Assembly (NCBI GenBank): GCA_016788885.1
Contig: JAEURX010000006.1
Span: forward strand, 62,001-126,000
Source of the DNA: Nitrospira sp.
Lineage (GTDB): Bacteria; Nitrospirota; Nitrospiria; Nitrospirales; Nitrospiraceae
Direction of reading: 5' to 3'
DNA: 64,000 bases
In this document: positions 35,899-45,399 of the stretch, one piece after another
How positions within the stretch are numbered: the stretch's first letter is position 1
Layout of the letters: every line of letters begins with the position of its first letter
Notes under the pieces: generated by a model
What the model saw: only the letters and a program-made list of their open reading frames with translations
What the model was told of the DNA's origin: nothing
Databases searched by the model: none
Program-made: the position numbers and the translations under genes

Positions 35899-38800
35899 CT
35901 AGAGGCCGGGCTGGGAAACATAGGGACTTGGTCCCCGATCCCCGTATGTCTCATAGACATGCTCGAATACGGCGCTACATTTCTGTTTGTAAATATCCGG
36001 CGTATAGGCACGAGGAAGGCCCTGGTCGAGCACATCTTCGATAGCCAGCTTCACTTTTGACCGAGCCGCGACGGTGTGCCGCCAATCCAGGACCAGCAAC
36101 TGTTTCAGTTTGGACAGCAAATCCCTGGCGACTTTCTTCAATTCCGCCCGTTCTGCGGCCCGTAATTCCGGGGCAGGGCGTGTCAGAATGTCAAAGATCA
36201 CCAATTCTTCTTCGGAAAGATTCTCCCGGACGTGGCGTTCCTGCTCTTTATTCAAACTGCGGCTGAGCGCCAGGAGCTCTCTGAACAGCTCGTCGATGTT
36301 ACGGCTCCCCGCATTGTAGGCGTCGATCAATTCTTCAAACTTAGTCAGATAGTCGGCCCTCGTGCGATTCAGACGAATCAGCTTATCGAGTTGAGCGCGG
36401 ATGGCCGCCTTCAGTTGCTCCAGGTCGATCTGTTTGGTTTTCGACTTCCCAAACCGTTGTGCGAGGGCCTCAAAGTCGATCTTTGTCAGGTCGATCACGC
36501 CATTACCAGACTTTCCTTGGGGAATGTGAAAGCCGTCGGCAGCCACGGACGCATCCAGAATCTTATTCAGGTCGGCCATCACGGCTGAAATATCCGCCGG
36601 CCCCTCCCCCGTCCTTTCACGCAGGCTCGCGGCGATGGTGGCCAGGCAGCTCACGCGAGAGGCGCATTCCAGCAGGGAGGGGTCTGGCTTCACCGCCTGA
36701 AAGAGCGTGCACACATAGCGTTCGTGGGCCAAAAAGTCCTTTCTGAGTGGATCAGGTGAGATCAGCGTTTCGACCGCTTCCGCAATCCTGGTGAGCCGCT
36801 CCAAGGTTCCGGCGCCCAGTCCTTCAATTTCCTTCAGGCTGACGCCATGCACTTGGCACAAGGCCGTGACGTCGTGAATCGCCTGGCGCAGTCCATCAAC
36901 CAGCCTCTGTTTGTCACGGATCGGGCGCTCGCCGCCTTTCCCTTTGGCATAGAGGGCAAGCGCCTTCTCCAGCGATTCGAAGACATTGGCATAGTCGACA
37001 ATCAAGCCGCTGTGCTTGCCGGGGAATACGCGGTTGGCCCTGGCAATGGTCTGCATCAGGGTGTGGTTCCGCATCGGCTTATCCAGATAAATCGTCGAGC
37101 AACTGGGCGCATCGAAACCGGTCAGCCACATGGCGCAGACAAAGACCAGGCGCAGCGGGTCTTTCGCCTCCTTAAACTTTTCGTCCAGGCCGCCGTCGTT
37201 CATGCGCTTCCGGTGCGGCGCGATGTCCAGCCCCAGTTTCTTCATCTCAGCAATCTCGTTCTGGGCGGAGGAGACGATGACCGCCATGTCGGTCGTACGG
37301 ATCACCTCGAGGCGTGCCTTGAGTTCCCGGATGCGATCGGGATCGGCAGGCCTGGCCCCATACGTCCTGAGCCCGGCCATCTCCTGTTCGACGCGCGTCG
37401 CTTCCTCGTTCCAGTGCGCCCGGACCTTGTCATGCATCCGCAAGGCTGTCGCCTTGTCGATGGAGATCACCATCGCCTTGCCTTGAAAGCCTCGTCCGAG
37501 GAAGTGCCGGACGATATCCTTGGCGATCGTCTCCAACCGGTCGTCGCGCGTCAGGAGTTGATACTGCCGGCCGAGTTCCCGCTCCAGCCGCTTCTCCTGC
37601 TCGTCGTCGAGTCCGGCTGCCTCAATCAGGTTATAGATGTCGTCGTTGAGGTGCGGATTCTCCAACCGGAGCTCCGGCGTCCGGTTCTCATAGAAGAGCG
37701 GTACCGTCGCGCCATCTTCAACGGACTGCTGGAAGTCATAGACAGAGACGTAGTCGCCAAATACCTCGCGCGTCCGCTCTTCCCCTGCAATCAAAGGCGT
37801 GCCGGTGAAGGCGAGGAAAAGGGCGTTGGGCAAGGCGGCACGCATATTGAGGGCCAGAGTGTCGTACTGGCTGCGGTGGGCTTCATCCGTCAGCACGATC
37901 ACATCGGACCGGTCGCACAGCAGCTCAGGAGTTTGGAATTTGTGGATGAGCGTGAAGACATAACGATGGTTTTCGCCAAGCAACTGCCGCAACTGCGCCC
38001 CGCTTTGGGCGTGGCACTGGTCGCTTTCCGTCTCGCTGACCGCGCCACAGGCCTTGAACGTCTTGGCAATCTGATCGTCCAGCTCAACACGATCCGTCAC
38101 CACAACGAAGGTCCAATTCCCGGGAATCTTGCGGAGGATTTTCTGGGCGAAGAACACCATCGCGAGGCTTTTGCCCGAGCCCTGCGTCTGCCAGAAGACG
38201 CCCGCTCGTCCGTGGCCCTGCTTTCTGGCGGTCAATGTGGCGGCGATGGCATTGTTCACGCCGAGGTACTGGTGATTTTGGCCGAGCACTTTGACCAATC
38301 CCGCCTTGTGCTCGGAGAACAGCGTGAAGTTTTCGAGCAGATCCAGGAGGCGTGATGGTTCACAGGTGCCGCGCAACATCACTTCCAGCGACACCCGGCG
38401 GGGTTCGTCTTCACGTTCGATCCGCTTCCACTCGAAGAAGCGCTCCCAGTCGGCTGTGAGCGAGCCGATATGGCTTTCCGTTCCATTGCTGGCGATCATC
38501 AGGCTGTTGAACCAGAAGAGTTGGGGGATGTCGGCCTTGTAACAGGTGAGATTGTCATCGAAGGCCTGTTGCGCAGGCACGCCGGGTTTCTTCAGCTCGA
38601 TCACGACGAAAGGCAGTCCATTCACGAATCCGACAAGGTCAGGCCGCCTCGTATAAAGGGAGCCGGTCACGCTGAGTTGACTGACGAGCAGAAAATCATT
38701 GGCGAGAGGATTGTCCCAATCGATGATGCGAACCCGTTCCGGCTCCTGGCCGCCGCTCGTGGCATCCGCAACAGTCACTTCGATGCCGTCTTTGAGCAGC

Positions 38801-39084
38801 CCGTACACCTCCCGATTCGCCGCTACCAGGCTCATGGCCGATCGGTCACGGGTCAATTGGTCGATGGCTTGGGAGAGTGCTTCTGGCGGGAGAGAGGGAT
38901 TGAGGCGTTCGAGCGAGGTACGGAGACGAGGGAGAAGAACCGTTTCCCCCTTGGTTTCTCGACCGAACGTACCGCCCAGGCCAAAGATCTCCTCGGCAGC
39001 GGAGAGAACCTGCCAGCCCAAGGTTGCGAGAAGATGCATGGCCGGCTGTTCGACAAGCTGATCTTCTGAGTAGGCTTGAGCCAT
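35899..39084 (-). CDS. hsdR: Type I restriction endonuclease subunit R (HsdR)
   Basis: Motor and nuclease subunit that cuts DNA far from the target. 1061 residues. Nuclease core RRPDLVGFVNGLPFVVIELKK gives the PD-(D/E)xK site near residue 145. Helicase motifs follow: WQTQGSGKSLAM (Walker A), VLTDEAHRSQY (DEAH box), FTGTPL and GFDAPSCSTIYLDKPM (motif VI region). The C-terminal assembly region is coil-rich. ATG immediately follows the TAA of the HIRAN-like gene (TAAATG), so it is strictly coupled. No frameshift or stop, so the system is likely active. Confidence 0.97.
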   Translation of the reverse strand: MAQAYSEDQLVEQPAMHLLATLGWQVLSAAEEIFGLGGTFGRETKGETVLLPRLRTSLERLNPSLPPEALSQAIDQLTRDRSAMSLVAANREVYGLLKDGIEVTVADATSGGQEPERVRIIDWDNPLANDFLLVSQLSVTGSLYTRRPDLVGFVNGLPFVVIELKKPGVPAQQAFDDNLTCYKADIPQLFWFNSLMIASNGTESHIGSLTADWERFFEWKRIEREDEPRRVSLEVMLRGTCEPSRLLDLLENFTLFSEHKAGLVKVLGQNHQYLGVNNAIAATLTARKQGHGRAGVFWQTQGSGKSLAMVFFAQKILRKIPGNWTFVVVTDRVELDDQIAKTFKACGAVSETESDQCHAQSGAQLRQLLGENHRYVFTLIHKFQTPELLCDRSDVIVLTDEAHRSQYDTLALNMRAALPNALFLAFTGTPLIAGEERTREVFGDYVSVYDFQQSVEDGATVPLFYENRTPELRLENPHLNDDIYNLIEAAGLDDEQEKRLERELGRQYQLLTRDDRLETIAKDIVRHFLGRGFQGKAMVISIDKATALRMHDKVRAHWNEEATRVEQEMAGLRTYGARPADPDRIRELKARLEVIRTTDMAVIVSSAQNEIAEMKKLGLDIAPHRKRMNDGGLDEKFKEAKDPLRLVFVCAMWLTGFDAPSCSTIYLDKPMRNHTLMQTIARANRVFPGKHSGLIVDYANVFESLEKALALYAKGKGGERPIRDKQRLVDGLRQAIHDVTALCQVHGVSLKEIEGLGAGTLERLTRIAEAVETLISPDPLRKDFLAHERYVCTLFQAVKPDPSLLECASRVSCLATIAASLRERTGEGPADISAVMADLNKILDASVAADGFHIPQGKSGNGVIDLTKIDFEALAQRFGKSKTKQIDLEQLKAAIRAQLDKLIRLNRTRADYLTKFEELIDAYNAGSRNIDELFRELLALSRSLNKEQERHVRENLSEEELVIFDILTRPAPELRAAERAELKKVARDLLSKLKQLLVLDWRHTVAARSKVKLAIEDVLDQGLPRAYTPDIYKQKCSAVFEHVYETYGDRGPSPYVSQPGL

Positions 39085-39855
39085 TTAGGCGACGAGGGGA
39101 AGAAATTCCTCACTGCTCATCGGTTGATATCCGATCTGAAACCTGCCTTCGAGTTCGACCAACACGCGTTGATTGTGTGGCGCCGGGGGAGGATTATTCC
39201 GGATCACATGGGCGCGCATGTTCTCGACTCCTCCGGCGATCGCGGCCAGCATGTCCTTGATGAGATACCGAGGGGTCCACCCAACCATGAAGTAGTCACC
39301 AGGGGTCAACAGTTGGATCGCTGCGCCTGTGGCGGGATTGTTCAGCTCTACGGCTACTTGCAGAGCGGCCCCGGCTTCCAACCGATTCAACCGCTCCTGG
39401 GACGGCATGTTCACGTGACGCCACCCGTGCAGGAAAAACCGACTGGCAAACCTTCCATCCCGGTGAGGACGGATTTGGGGGAAGACTTCCAAGTTATCCG
39501 TCTGGCGTCCCCCGCCGGAGACGGCCAGAATCGCGAACGGGTCTCGTTCCTCTGGCGAGAGCGCCAAGCGTTCAAGGTACTCGGCATAATCTTCCCGCTT
39601 CGGACTAATCAGGCGGTTTTGGAACAGAGGGAATAACTCACCTGATTCATACACTTTCTCGAACTGAGGAAACGCATCCAACGGTTGGAAGCCTGCCTTG
39701 GCTTGAGCCTCCAACACACCCTTCGTATAGAGAAACCGAAACCACCCCTGCCCCGGTTCGGATTCCAGGCGACCGATAGGAAACCAGGCACGCGAGCCAG
39801 GGCGTGCCCCACCATCTGGCCTCGCATCCTGCCAAGCTAAGAACAGCGTTTTCAT
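39085..39855 (-). CDS. HIRAN-like domain protein in a type I RM operon
   Basis: 256 residues. The C-terminal part has ELNNPATGAAIQLLTPGDY, VGWTPRYLIKDM and NNPPPAPHNQRVLVELEG, which match the pattern of standalone bacterial HIRAN domains (binding of 3' DNA ends or damaged DNA in related eukaryotic proteins). The first 110 residues include KGVLEAQAKAGF and PKREDYAEYLERLAL, an unknown but charged region. ATG overlaps the stop of the HipA-like gene (ATGA). Its last base directly precedes hsdR. HIRAN assignment is by eye; the N-terminal part is unrecognised. Confidence 0.6.
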   Translation of the reverse strand: MKTLFLAWQDARPDGGARPGSRAWFPIGRLESEPGQGWFRFLYTKGVLEAQAKAGFQPLDAFPQFEKVYESGELFPLFQNRLISPKREDYAEYLERLALSPEERDPFAILAVSGGGRQTDNLEVFPQIRPHRDGRFASRFFLHGWRHVNMPSQERLNRLEAGAALQVAVELNNPATGAAIQLLTPGDYFMVGWTPRYLIKDMLAAIAGGVENMRAHVIRNNPPPAPHNQRVLVELEGRFQIGYQPMSSEEFLPLVA

Positions 39856-40775
39856 AAGAATGTACCCACTACTTGCCCAAAGGTGACACTGAGAAGCCCT
39901 TTTGCAAATGTCCGTTGCCGTGGATCGATGGCCTGATCCGGCACACGATCGACGACGGACAGCATGCGGTCCAAGCCGACATTCTGCACCATTTGGCTCC
40001 ATGGTTGAAAGTACCGAGGCCAGGCGCGGGCGGCCACCTCGAACAGCCTCAACGGGTTCGCTCCATGTTCATCCGTGGCCTTGATGAAGATCGCTCCGCG
40101 CCCCCGAGCGGCATACCATTCGAAGCGATACGCTTCTTTCAGCCATTGGCCGATCTTCTCCACCGGCTCATTGCGCCCGAGGGAAGAGGCATGATCAAAC
40201 GTGGGAGCCACTCGGTGAAGATGTGTTCCATCATTCGAAGGCATACGAATTAGCGCCCAGTTTTCATGGTGCCGGTCGGTGTTCAGAATCAAGGCATCCA
40301 ACGTCACGTACCCGGCCAACTGGCTGAATGCCCTATCCCGTTCCTCTCGATCAGGAATTACTACGGCAATTGCGTTCGCGATATTCTCAATCGTATGGTC
40401 TGGCTGGGCCCGTCGTCCTGCCCGATCATATCCCAAGACAGCCCCGGCTAGGAGGTCGTTACCGTGAATTAACTCGGTGCCAGGTCGGGACAGCTCAGGA
40501 AACCGTCGGCTGATACAGCCAACTGCGCCATCGAGTCTGGCGAGTTCGACACGTGCATGCGGGATCTCGAGGAGCCCAGCCAATTCAGCTGCGACCTTTT
40601 CCGCCCAGTGCTCCCCGGTGATCTCGCCATTGCTCAGGCGCGCGTACTTGAAGAGCCACGGCTCCGAATCCGTACCCACCTGCACCCACCCCTTCCGCTT
40701 GCTGCCCATCTCTTCGGGAGCGAGCACGTCTTCTTTACGAAGAGAAATGATGGGATAGGATTCAAGGGCCGGCAT
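39852..40775 (-). CDS. HipA/CtkA-like Ser/Thr kinase in a type I RM operon
   Basis: 307 residues from the ATG at 40775. The nucleotide-binding lysine lies in WLFKYARL, and EKVAAELAGLLEIP gives the alpha-C glutamate. Catalytic loop LNTDRHHENWALI holds the Asp and Asn, and PTFDHASSLG is the metal-binding DFG-like loop. This is the HipA-like kinase class used as a toxin (for example phosphorylating tRNA synthetases) or effector. No HipB-like DNA-binding antitoxin is adjacent. It lies 5 bases after hsdS. A longer frame upstream overlaps hsdS and is not supported. Confidence 0.78.
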   Translation of the reverse strand: MPALESYPIISLRKEDVLAPEEMGSKRKGWVQVGTDSEPWLFKYARLSNGEITGEHWAEKVAAELAGLLEIPHARVELARLDGAVGCISRRFPELSRPGTELIHGNDLLAGAVLGYDRAGRRAQPDHTIENIANAIAVVIPDREERDRAFSQLAGYVTLDALILNTDRHHENWALIRMPSNDGTHLHRVAPTFDHASSLGRNEPVEKIGQWLKEAYRFEWYAARGRGAIFIKATDEHGANPLRLFEVAARAWPRYFQPWSQMVQNVGLDRMLSVVDRVPDQAIDPRQRTFAKGLLSVTFGQVVGTFL

Positions 40776-40780
40776 GCGAT

Positions 40781-42045
<1,265 letters not shown>

Positions 42046-42049
<4 letters not shown>

Positions 42050-43656
42050 GTTTCGAGAATCTCCGCAACATTCCGAGCGATAGTCTGCTCCAGCTCACGG
42101 GCCTGGGCATTCAGCGTTTCCAGTTCTTCATTCAGCGCTTCAAGCTGTTCCTTGAAATCCTCGTCACTGACTTCTTCGCCGGGTGCCACACCGACATAAC
42201 GGCCAGGGTTGAGGCTCCAGCACTGCGTTTCGATTTCTTTGATCGTGGCGGCTTTGCACAAGCCCGGCACGTCGGTGAACTTCAGCTTCTTGCCGAATAC
42301 TTCTTTGAGCTTGGCTTCGGCCCCGGGCCCTCCGAGGGTGAAGTCCGGCTCCTCGCCCCGGTAGAGCCGGACAGCGTTGGCCAAGAATCCGATCTGGCTT
42401 TCGGTCCAGTCACGGTGTGCCCGATCCACCTGGCGGTAAATGTGTCGCGCATCGAGAAAGAGGACTTTGTCGGCTCTCGGCGTCTTCTGCTTCCCTCGAT
42501 CCAAAAACCACAAGGTACAAGGCAGCGTGACGGTGTAGAACATGTTCGGCCCCACGGCGACCATCACATCCACCGCACGGGCTTCGATGAGCTGCTTGCG
42601 GATCTCCTGCTCGGAAGAGCGAGCATCGGAGGCGCTGTTCGCCATGACGAAGCCGGCTCGCCCGGTCTGGTTCAACGTCGAATAAAAGAGTTGAATCCAG
42701 AGGTAGTTCGCGTTGTCGGTGCGAGGCAGGCCGAAGGGATACCGGCGGCCTTTGCCCACCTCGGCTTCCAGCCGCTCCTTATCGACGGCGTTCACGTTGA
42801 ACGGCGGATTGGCGAGGACGAAGTCGAATTTTCCGGTACTGTTGTGCAGGTCGTCGTAGTAGGTGATGGCTTCTTTGATATCCCCTTCGAGGCCGTGCAT
42901 GGCCAGGTTCATGCGGCAGAGGGCGACTGTGGCTGCGACCTTTTCCTGTCCATGAATAGCTAGTTCTGACGACGGGTTCTTCTTATGCTCGGCGACGAAG
43001 CGGGCGCTTTGGACGAACATGCCGCCGGAGCCGCAGGCGGGGTCCAGGATGCGGCCATGGTAGGGCTCCAACACTTCCACCAGCAGGCGCACGATGCCCG
43101 AAGGCGTGTAGAACTCGCCGCCCTTCTGTCCTTCCGTTCGGGCAAACTCGCCGAGGAAGTATTCGTAGATGCGCCCGAAGGCATCGTAGTCCATGGTCGC
43201 CGGGATTTCGGACACGCGCTTGAGCAGTTCCTTCAACAACGTGCCGGCAAAGACTTCATAGGTCTTAGGAAGCACTCCGGCAAGCTGAGGATTATGCTTT
43301 TCAATGTCGCGCATGGCTTCATTGATCGCCTTGCCGGCATTGCTGCCTTCCGGCAGATGGAGAAGCCTTTCGAATCGGGCGTTCGGCGTCAGATAGAGCA
43401 CCCCTTCGGCATGATAGGCGGATGGTTCGTCCACGCGTGAGCCGCGCCGTGACGAAGACGCCATCTTCTCCAGGCCGGCCCTGATCTTGGCAAAGCGTAC
43501 ATCGGCGAAGCGGAGGAATATTAGGCCTAAGACCGGGGTGGAATATTGGGCCGCGGTCAGGCCGCTATTGGCCCGCAACTGATCGGCCGCATCCCACAGA
43601 CGTTTTTCCAGCGCGTCCGTCGCCGTGTCTTTTTCCGATGGGGCAATCCATTGCAT
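42046..43656 (-). CDS. hsdM: Type I DNA methyltransferase subunit M (HsdM)
   Basis: N6-adenine methyltransferase that also forms the S/M core. 536 residues. SAM-binding motif [14 protein letters not shown] near residue 205, and catalytic NPPF in [13 protein letters not shown] near residue 280. Helical N-terminal HsdM_N domain at residues 10-150. ATG at 43656 with GGAGGG 15 bases upstream, further than usual. First gene of the five-gene hsd operon. The gap 43657-43869 ahead of it has a palindrome at 43828. Confidence 0.97.
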
Positions 43657-43869: not shown

Positions 43870-45399
43870 TCACGCCCGATTCACTTCCGCCGGTTGCGGC
43901 ACGCCTGAACTATCCAGTTGGTAGGCGTAGGCCTCTTTCATTTGCACGTTGCCGCTGTCGGTGTAGACGAAGAGGCGGTGGCCGTCGGTGCGGGTCTTGA
44001 CGAGGCCGTAGGCGGTGCGGCTGAAGCCGAAGAACGGTCCCCGCTTCTTGGCGGCCTTCTCGTCTTGGAGGCGGCTGGGCCCTTCGGTTTGGAAGAAGGC
44101 CACGAGTTCGGTGACGAAGATGAGTGGTTCCGGGACGCGCGACCATTTGCCGAGAGCGCCCATGAGGGTGGCGCGCGGGTGGATGTATTCTTTGCGCGCA
44201 TTTTCGTCGCCGCTGGACACGCAGCTCACGATGGGCGACACAGCTTGAATGAAGGCGCCGGAGAAATCGGCCGAGCCGTGATGCGGCACCTTGAACACTT
44301 CCGAGCGCAGATTGAGCGTACCTTTGTTATGTTCCCGGGCAAGGAAGCGGCTGGCCTCGTCGTTCAAGTCTCCTGAGAACAGGAAGCTGAAGCCGCCGTA
44401 GCTCAAGCGGAGCACGATCGAATGGCCGTTGATGGTGTGGGAGGCGGAATGGCCGGTGAAGCCTTCGTCGCTGTCGTTGAGCGAGTCATGGCCGATACGC
44501 GGCCCGGTCGGCGGTTCACCGAGAAAGCGCAGTGCCGGTTGGCCTCCCACCTGTGTGGTGATCGGCCCCAATACTTCGATGCGCATGTCGGTCCGGTTGA
44601 AAAACTCGAAGGCTTGATTGTCGCCGAGCTGCAGACGGCGGAAACTAATGGGGTTGCGGCTATTGTAGGTGGCGAGGGTCTGTTTCCATTCTCTGAACGG
44701 CTCGTTCATGTCCTTGTCGTCGACGCCGAGCAGATTCTCTTCCAGCCCCGTGAGGTACAGTCGTCCGTCCACGGTCTTGGTCGGTCCGAGGAGTTTGGTG
44801 TCCGGTACGTCTTTGTTGTTCATTCTGGTCGGGCGTTTGACGAGACCGTTGTGGTAGACGCGCTGTGGCTGCATGAAGAGTCGCTTGCGTGTAACCTTGT
44901 TGGTTTCGGATTTGAGGATCTCACTCAAGCCGGCGAAGTGATCGGCGTCGCCATGGGTGACGACGATGCAATCGATCTGCTTCGGGTGGTCGGCGCTGGT
45001 GTTGCGGAAGCGCCCGGCCAGGTAGCGCGCGAACATCTGGTTGTCGCCGCCGTCGATAAGGATGATTTTTCCGTCCGGCGATTCGATGACCATGCCGTCG
45101 CCTTGCTGGACATCGACGAAGTTGACCTTCAAGACTTTGTTGTCCAGCACGGGGCGAACCAGGTCGGCCACCTTGATGCCGGACGATTTGGTCGGCTCGA
45201 TGTAACCGGTGATGGATTCGGGGAGGATGCTGCCGTCGGGTTTTTCGCGAAAGACGGTGATGCTCACTTCGAGGTACGTCGCTGCCTGCTTCACCACGGT
45301 GATTTCGTCGCCCCAGGCGACCGTGCGGATGTACTGTTTGCGCCCTCGCTCTTCCCACACATCGGCCAGATCGACATTGAGTACGGTTTGATCAGGCAT
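43870..45399 (-). CDS. Metallo-beta-lactamase-fold hydrolase, ComEC C-domain-like
   Basis: 509 residues, predicted cytoplasmic (no signal or membrane segments). The zinc motif is VTHGDADHFAGL, a variant of HxHxDH, followed later by VPHHGSADFS and LIDGGDN, the pattern shared with the nuclease domain of ComEC. The first 85 residues are an added domain (unknown, SH3-like appearance). Strong AAGGGGAG site five bases before the ATG. Whether it belongs to the hsd unit is unclear because 213 bases and a palindrome separate them. The family includes nucleases and phosphodiesterases. Confidence 0.75.
   Translation of the reverse strand: MPDQTVLNVDLADVWEERGRKQYIRTVAWGDEITVVKQAATYLEVSITVFREKPDGSILPESITGYIEPTKSSGIKVADLVRPVLDNKVLKVNFVDVQQGDGMVIESPDGKIILIDGGDNQMFARYLAGRFRNTSADHPKQIDCIVVTHGDADHFAGLSEILKSETNKVTRKRLFMQPQRVYHNGLVKRPTRMNNKDVPDTKLLGPTKTVDGRLYLTGLEENLLGVDDKDMNEPFREWKQTLATYNSRNPISFRRLQLGDNQAFEFFNRTDMRIEVLGPITTQVGGQPALRFLGEPPTGPRIGHDSLNDSDEGFTGHSASHTINGHSIVLRLSYGGFSFLFSGDLNDEASRFLAREHNKGTLNLRSEVFKVPHHGSADFSGAFIQAVSPIVSCVSSGDENARKEYIHPRATLMGALGKWSRVPEPLIFVTELVAFFQTEGPSRLQDEKAAKKRGPFFGFSRTAYGLVKTRTDGHRLFVYTDSGNVQMKEAYAYQLDSSGVPQPAEVNRA

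Follow-up and report, generated by a model that had tools for sequence, protein, structure and literature searches.

Why does a type I restriction-modification (RM) operon of Nitrospira sp. carry two extra genes, one for a kinase and one for a HIRAN-like protein, between hsdS and hsdR, and do these genes serve the restriction enzyme or a purpose of their own? The operon lies in a stretch of 64,000 nucleotides, which we call the window; among genomes that bear a name, its nearest relatives are Nitrospira moscoviensis and Nitrospira MAGs. ORF and profile analysis of the window gives the order hsdM–hsdS–hipI–hipN–hsdR, with all genes intact and all on the minus strand (Table 1); when gene calls and motifs were re-read, the order, coordinates and motifs given by the first-pass annotation were correct. 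The genes are packed tightly: hsdM and hsdS overlap by 4 bp, hipI follows hsdS after 5 bp, hipI and hipN share an ATGA overlap, and the TAA of hipN directly abuts the ATG of hsdR. The minus strand of the operon shows no sigma-70-like promoter, and in total such promoters are no more frequent than in shuffled sequences, so separate transcription of the extra genes is unsupported. Their third-position GC is 0.62–0.64, against 0.72–0.73 for hsdM and hsdR. Just upstream of hsdM there is a gene for a protein with an MBL fold, which resembles the ComEC C-terminal, LmuA and Avs1a MBL domains; a copy with 86% identity stands upstream of the RM operon in another locus (L013).

Table 1. Genes and protein domains of the RM operon, with its upstream neighbour, in window coordinates
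Feature	Position	Strand	Details
MBL-fold protein	43870-45399	-	509 aa
hsdM, type I methyltransferase	42046..43656	-	536 aa; N6_Mtase E 4e-80, HsdM_N
hsdS, specificity subunit, two Methylase_S stretches	40781..42049	-	422 aa; Methylase_S E 2e-25; PADLOC Specificity_I
hipI, HipA/HipT-type core kinase	39852..40775	-	307 aa from ATG; HipA_C E 2e-11; PDC-M03A E 5e-108
hipN, putative antitoxin/sensor	39085..39855	-	256 aa; PDC-M03B E 3e-74; AlphaFold2 pLDDT 79, model built on 7 sequences
HipS-like domain of HipN, residues 1-128	39472..39855	-	Z 11.2 to L. pneumophila HipS (8ezr_A, 100 residues), 10.7 to E. coli HipS (7ab3_E)
HIRAN domain of HipN, residues 131-251	39103..39465	-	Z 10.0 to lp_0118 (3k2y), 8.1 to Rad5, 7.4-7.6 to HLTF, over 91-105 residues
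hsdR, type I restriction subunit	35899..39084	-	1061 aa; HSDR_N, SWI2_SNF2, T1RH-like_C

The kinase had been described as HipA-type with an intact active site, and this description is borne out. HipA_C is the only Pfam match of HipI, with no ABC-ATPase or anticodon nuclease domain, and its AlphaFold2 model (pLDDT 94) matches the structures of CtkA (Z 26), HipT (Z 18–20) and the HipA core (Z 17–18). The protein lacks N-subdomain-1 of HipA; the alignment covers HipT, and the HipA core from about residue 122 on. Both signature motifs, NTDRHHEN (residues 165-172) and FDHASS (193-198), are present. Across 69 relatives, the residues for catalysis (D167, N172) and for Mg binding (D194) never vary. 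The region of the Gly-rich loop reads G24-S25-K26-x-K28, and at the position of S25, beside the loop, 67 of the 69 relatives have Ser or Thr. Judged by these motifs, HipI should be an active kinase.

The second protein, HipN, is less easily read. The first-pass annotation called it HIRAN-like, and indeed the HIRAN fold is there in the predicted structure, but a second domain was overlooked. In Pfam both domains stay below the gathering score, which is a detection threshold and not a statement about biology: HIRAN reaches 16.1 bits against a cut-off of 24.7 (residues 138–234), and Couple_hipA, the HipA N-terminal family, 15.9 bits against 22.5 (residues 26–114). A sequence profile search against PDB sequences returned nothing significant for HipN, so both domains are placed by structure comparison only, which finds a HipS-like fold in the first half and a HIRAN fold in the second. 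The E. coli homologue is named "HIRAN domain-containing protein" in RefSeq. On the strength of the model, HipN is a HipS–HIRAN fusion. In HipBST of E. coli, HipS neutralises the HipT kinase with a Trp that it wedges into the active site of the kinase (PMC10627512), and by its predicted fold the N-terminal half of HipN is a putative antitoxin, so that no HipB would be needed. The remark that the system has no HipB antitoxin is accurate in that no HTH or HipB gene occurs in the operon; because residues 1–128 are HipS-like, it holds for HipB alone and not for antitoxins in general. The HIRAN half is divergent: at the acidic position of the usual NPxD motif, this protein and 50 of 65 relatives have Thr. 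Given this substitution and the score below the Pfam cut-off, DNA-end binding by HipN is unsure. Natural fusions of the kinase with HipN, of the HipL kind, do not occur among the fetched loci.

A pair of this build has a name already. It is hipIN as described by Gerdes et al. 2021 (PMC8262856): a short core kinase without N-subdomain-1, with the catalytic and Mg motifs and a Ser by the Gly-rich loop, is followed downstream by a two-domain protein that joins a HipS-like part to HIRAN. The HipI subclades published there come from Actinobacteria, Firmicutes, Proteobacteria and Cyanobacteria, whereas the pair in the window has a Nitrospira host and is embedded in an hsd operon; the word "restriction" is absent from the main text of that paper (PMC8262856). 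PADLOC-DB 2.0 recognises the two neighbouring genes as well, by the profiles PDC-M03A and PDC-M03B, although PDC-M03 stands there as a phage-defence candidate only. PDC-M03 may derive from the survey of embedded genes that Payne et al. posted on bioRxiv in 2024. Our search of the literature on hipIN function found the 2021 phylogeny alone, with no functional study and no paper naming PDC-M03. The idea that HIRAN senses the ends of phage DNA and thereby sets off abortive infection was likewise put forward for hipIN by those authors (PMC8262856). The suggestion of a "backup abortive system" in the first-pass annotation is, in our opinion, the best reading of the locus, but it is not a new proposal. 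What is new here is mainly where the described module sits, and the slot that it occupies is itself of a known kind.

How often does hipIN take this place? We analysed 90 loci, namely the best 80 from a genome-wide scan, the window, and nine from a Nitrospirota search. The downstream hipN follows hipI in nearly all relatives, and since the pairing recurs so regularly, the co-occurrence is far above chance. The search of other hsd operons that had been suggested for the kinase–HIRAN pair shows that it does recur there: 22 of the 90 loci have hipIN between hsdS or hsdM and hsdR (in one, L042, inverted), a fraction that is approximate because the best-80 list favours relatives of the query, two of the loci (L015 and L028) belong to the same genome, and contig ends hide neighbours. 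Ten further loci lie near hsd genes, and in 58 no hsd gene was detected, some of these being limited by contig ends. The placements vary: in L048, L049 and L076, three of these ten, hipIN comes directly after hsdS and an hsdR of a different type comes first, and in L100 it stands beside a type III subunit. By far the commonest neighbour clusters are Hsd proteins (27 and 22 loci, against 6 for the next cluster). The loci in the slot belong to Nitrospirota, Pseudomonadota, Verrucomicrobiota, Latescibacterota, Eiseniibacteriota and Hydrogenedentota. On the HipI tree, 14 changes of the label "slot" are required, and strongly supported branches force at least 9 of these; this points to repeated capture or loss, apparently to capture. 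An even draw of 396 Nitrospirota genomes gave a kinase match in ten; when the genome of the window and two weak matches (G362, G364) are excluded, hipIN sits in the slot in four of the remaining seven (G129, G245, G224, G199).

Two simple rules for this distribution were considered and rejected. One is that hipIN always accompanies RM: in loci without hsd, housekeeping genes make up most of the tightly linked genes upstream or downstream of it, and genes of type III or type IIG RM only a few. The other is a strict tie between the type of hipIN and HsdS specificity: in L014 HsdS is only 39% identical to that of the window, while HipI is 90% and HipN 97% identical.

Most other hipIN loci are free-standing or in prophages, and therefore hipIN does not depend on RM. 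In E. coli SCU-115 the pair lies between the replication endonuclease and portal genes of a P2-like prophage (L252, 7001-8652). Of 5,426 E. coli genomes, 21 have a copy of the E. coli type; the single locus that was read lies in a P2-like prophage. In Vibrio phage 10N.286.55.A12_PE001, a temperate member of Vinavirales, hipIN stands beside the integrase (L251, 10953-12646).

These placements bear on a guardian role of the kind known for PrrC, in which HsdMSR would bind and silence HipI or HipN until an antirestriction protein of a phage puts the complex out of action and so sets the kinase free. The gene for PrrC lies exactly between hsdS and hsdR. It is embedded in the EcoprrI locus, of type IC, and PrrC becomes active once EcoPrrI is inhibited (PMC12707154). 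The shared slot and the tight operon with its overlapping genes thus agree with a guardian in the window. On the other hand, the linkage of prrC to type Ic hsd loci is without exception (PMC3874168), whereas for the majority of hipIN loci no hsd gene was detected and many copies of hipIN are in prophages, and the inverted, post-hsdS and type III placements argue against a specific contact with the enzyme. We consider such a guardian unlikely as the general explanation; it is possible in this operon and unneeded for hipIN elsewhere. The suggestion that the pair "senses RM failure" is not supported; the HIRAN domain points rather to DNA ends.

The slot itself was also compared in genomes of the same family. 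Among Nitrospiraceae with an HsdR similar to the one in the window, seven carry hipIN before hsdR (G000, G129, G224, G245, G412, G430, G432), and five others with a readable slot (among L190 to L195; HsdR 78-90% identical at the protein level) carry different cargo in the same place: PDC-S11 in G145; PDC-M04A with PDC-M04B in G141; an OLD/Gabija-like ATPase–TOPRIM nuclease in G202; Shedu with PDC-M19A and PDC-M19B in G147; and a PD-T4-6/MAD6-like protein kinase with a protein of 753 aa in G247. That last protein (L195:4769-7030) has no convincing family match. Wherever the family of an alternative occupant can be recognised, it is a known or candidate defence family. The boundaries are sharp. 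The similarity of the DNA ends at the slot and resumes at most about 10 codons from the start of hsdR (39057–39084 in the window), while hsdM and hsdR stay similar, so that hsdS forms the 5' seam of the slot and the first codons of hsdR its 3' seam. In N. moscoviensis and in G224, remnants of the hsdR N-terminus, 62–63 codons long, are left between hsdS and hipI (L197:7172-7357, L015:3104-3292), and these are scars of cassette turnover. With its position between hsdS and hsdR of a type I operon, hipIN stands where RM-embedded defence cargo is found, and the hsdS–hsdR gap here is a modular slot for defence cargo. In a further locus a GmrSD/BrxU-like gene (HEC-05) is stacked before hipIN in the same slot (L026:7976-9790), which makes two cargo systems in one RM operon.

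The same comparison speaks to the proposal that the pair is "a regulator of the nuclease". HipI would then phosphorylate HsdR or HsdM, or HipN would guide HsdR, so that restriction is tuned. Co-transcription with the hsd genes, which the overlaps and the gaps of 0-5 bp make likely, would suit this. But close relatives of this HsdR work with unrelated genes in the slot, so the enzyme can do without hipIN, and an hsd partner is absent from most hipIN loci; we regard regulation of the enzyme as very improbable.

It may further be asked whether the slot is merely a tolerant insertion site and hipIN a selfish passenger, which stabilises its carrier, be it an RM operon or a prophage, by addiction and has no role in defence. 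The toxin-antitoxin-like build, the free-standing copies between housekeeping genes and the spread on prophages are all as expected of such an element. The other occupants of the slot are not, as those with a recognisable family all fall in known or candidate defence families, and defence genes are also the usual cargo of this slot in other species (PMC11411939). We believe that pure addiction is rather unlikely.

We return to defence cargo. Our preferred reading, to which we assign a probability of roughly 0.55, is that hipIN is an exchangeable defence cassette in the hsdS–hsdR slot and provides a second layer, an abortive system of kinase and antitoxin that DNA ends would set off. By analogy with HipS and HipT, the HipS-like lid of HipN would hold HipI inactive. 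The HIRAN domain, whose motif is partly conserved, may detect DNA ends that arise from phage nucleases, phage replication or cleavage by HsdR, and binding of an end would free or activate HipI. If HipI behaves as HipA and HipT do, it would then phosphorylate an essential host protein (an aminoacyl-tRNA synthetase in the known relatives), and growth would stop. RM would act first, with hipIN as a second, independent layer. Since hipIN is mostly found without hsd genes, also in prophages and temperate phages, its trigger should be built in, and the HIRAN domain suggests DNA ends as that trigger. The pattern of gene decay is of interest here: the kinase frame is broken and HipN intact in 7 independent loci and the converse holds in 0 (p about 0.014 by length), although several of the broken frames stem from drafts assembled from metagenomes, where sequencing errors may be the cause. 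As read from these frames, such one-sided decay fits a harmful kinase that is restrained by HipN. A role in phage defence has a precedent among HipA-type kinases in HipAD (PMC13092281).

A broader version joins two claims, that the hsdS–hsdR gap is a general and precisely bounded cassette socket with hsdR and hsdM conserved, and that hipIN turns breaks made by HsdR or phage into growth arrest, thus coupling restriction to abortive infection. Both together we hold to be a doubtful proposition for the present. If true, the finding would link the purpose of Hip modules that bear HIRAN with the question of what the extra genes in RM operons are there for. A natural experiment is at hand in the Nitrospiraceae series, in which nearly the same RM enzyme is combined with at least 6 different partners in one slot, and this makes the dependence of the cargo on the RM enzyme testable. 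Should HipN gate the kinase by DNA ends, it would represent a simple new type of phage sensor.

How does hipIN in this operon compare with known systems? HipBST of E. coli O127 and L. pneumophila shares the kinase without N-subdomain-1 and the separate HipS domain as antitoxin, but it has an HTH HipB, and its HipS is without HIRAN and encoded before the kinase. In the window, hsdS takes the upstream place where HipBST has HipB, and the HipS domain does not stand alone but is fused to HIRAN and encoded downstream. TgvAB of VPI-2 in Vibrio cholerae and RloF of Campylobacter share the position, their genes lying inside the operon from hsdR to hsdS, and tgvAB acts against phages by stopping them (PMC11411939); they are GmrSD-like type IV restriction systems and not kinases. 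PrrC of EcoprrI is likewise cargo of a type I hsd operon and an effector that stops translation. Unlike hipIN, a kinase that comes with a putative antitoxin of its own and is mostly not linked to RM, PrrC is an anticodon nuclease with an ABC-ATPase, which the RM protein keeps silent and which is always linked to RM. RloC is an abortive effector with a built-in sensor of DNA breaks and is rarely linked to RM (PMC3874168); the corresponding sensor of hipIN is putative, and the parts differ, a Rad50-like ATPase with a tRNase in RloC against a kinase with HIRAN in hipIN. In its proposed logic, hipIN is closer to RloC than to PrrC.
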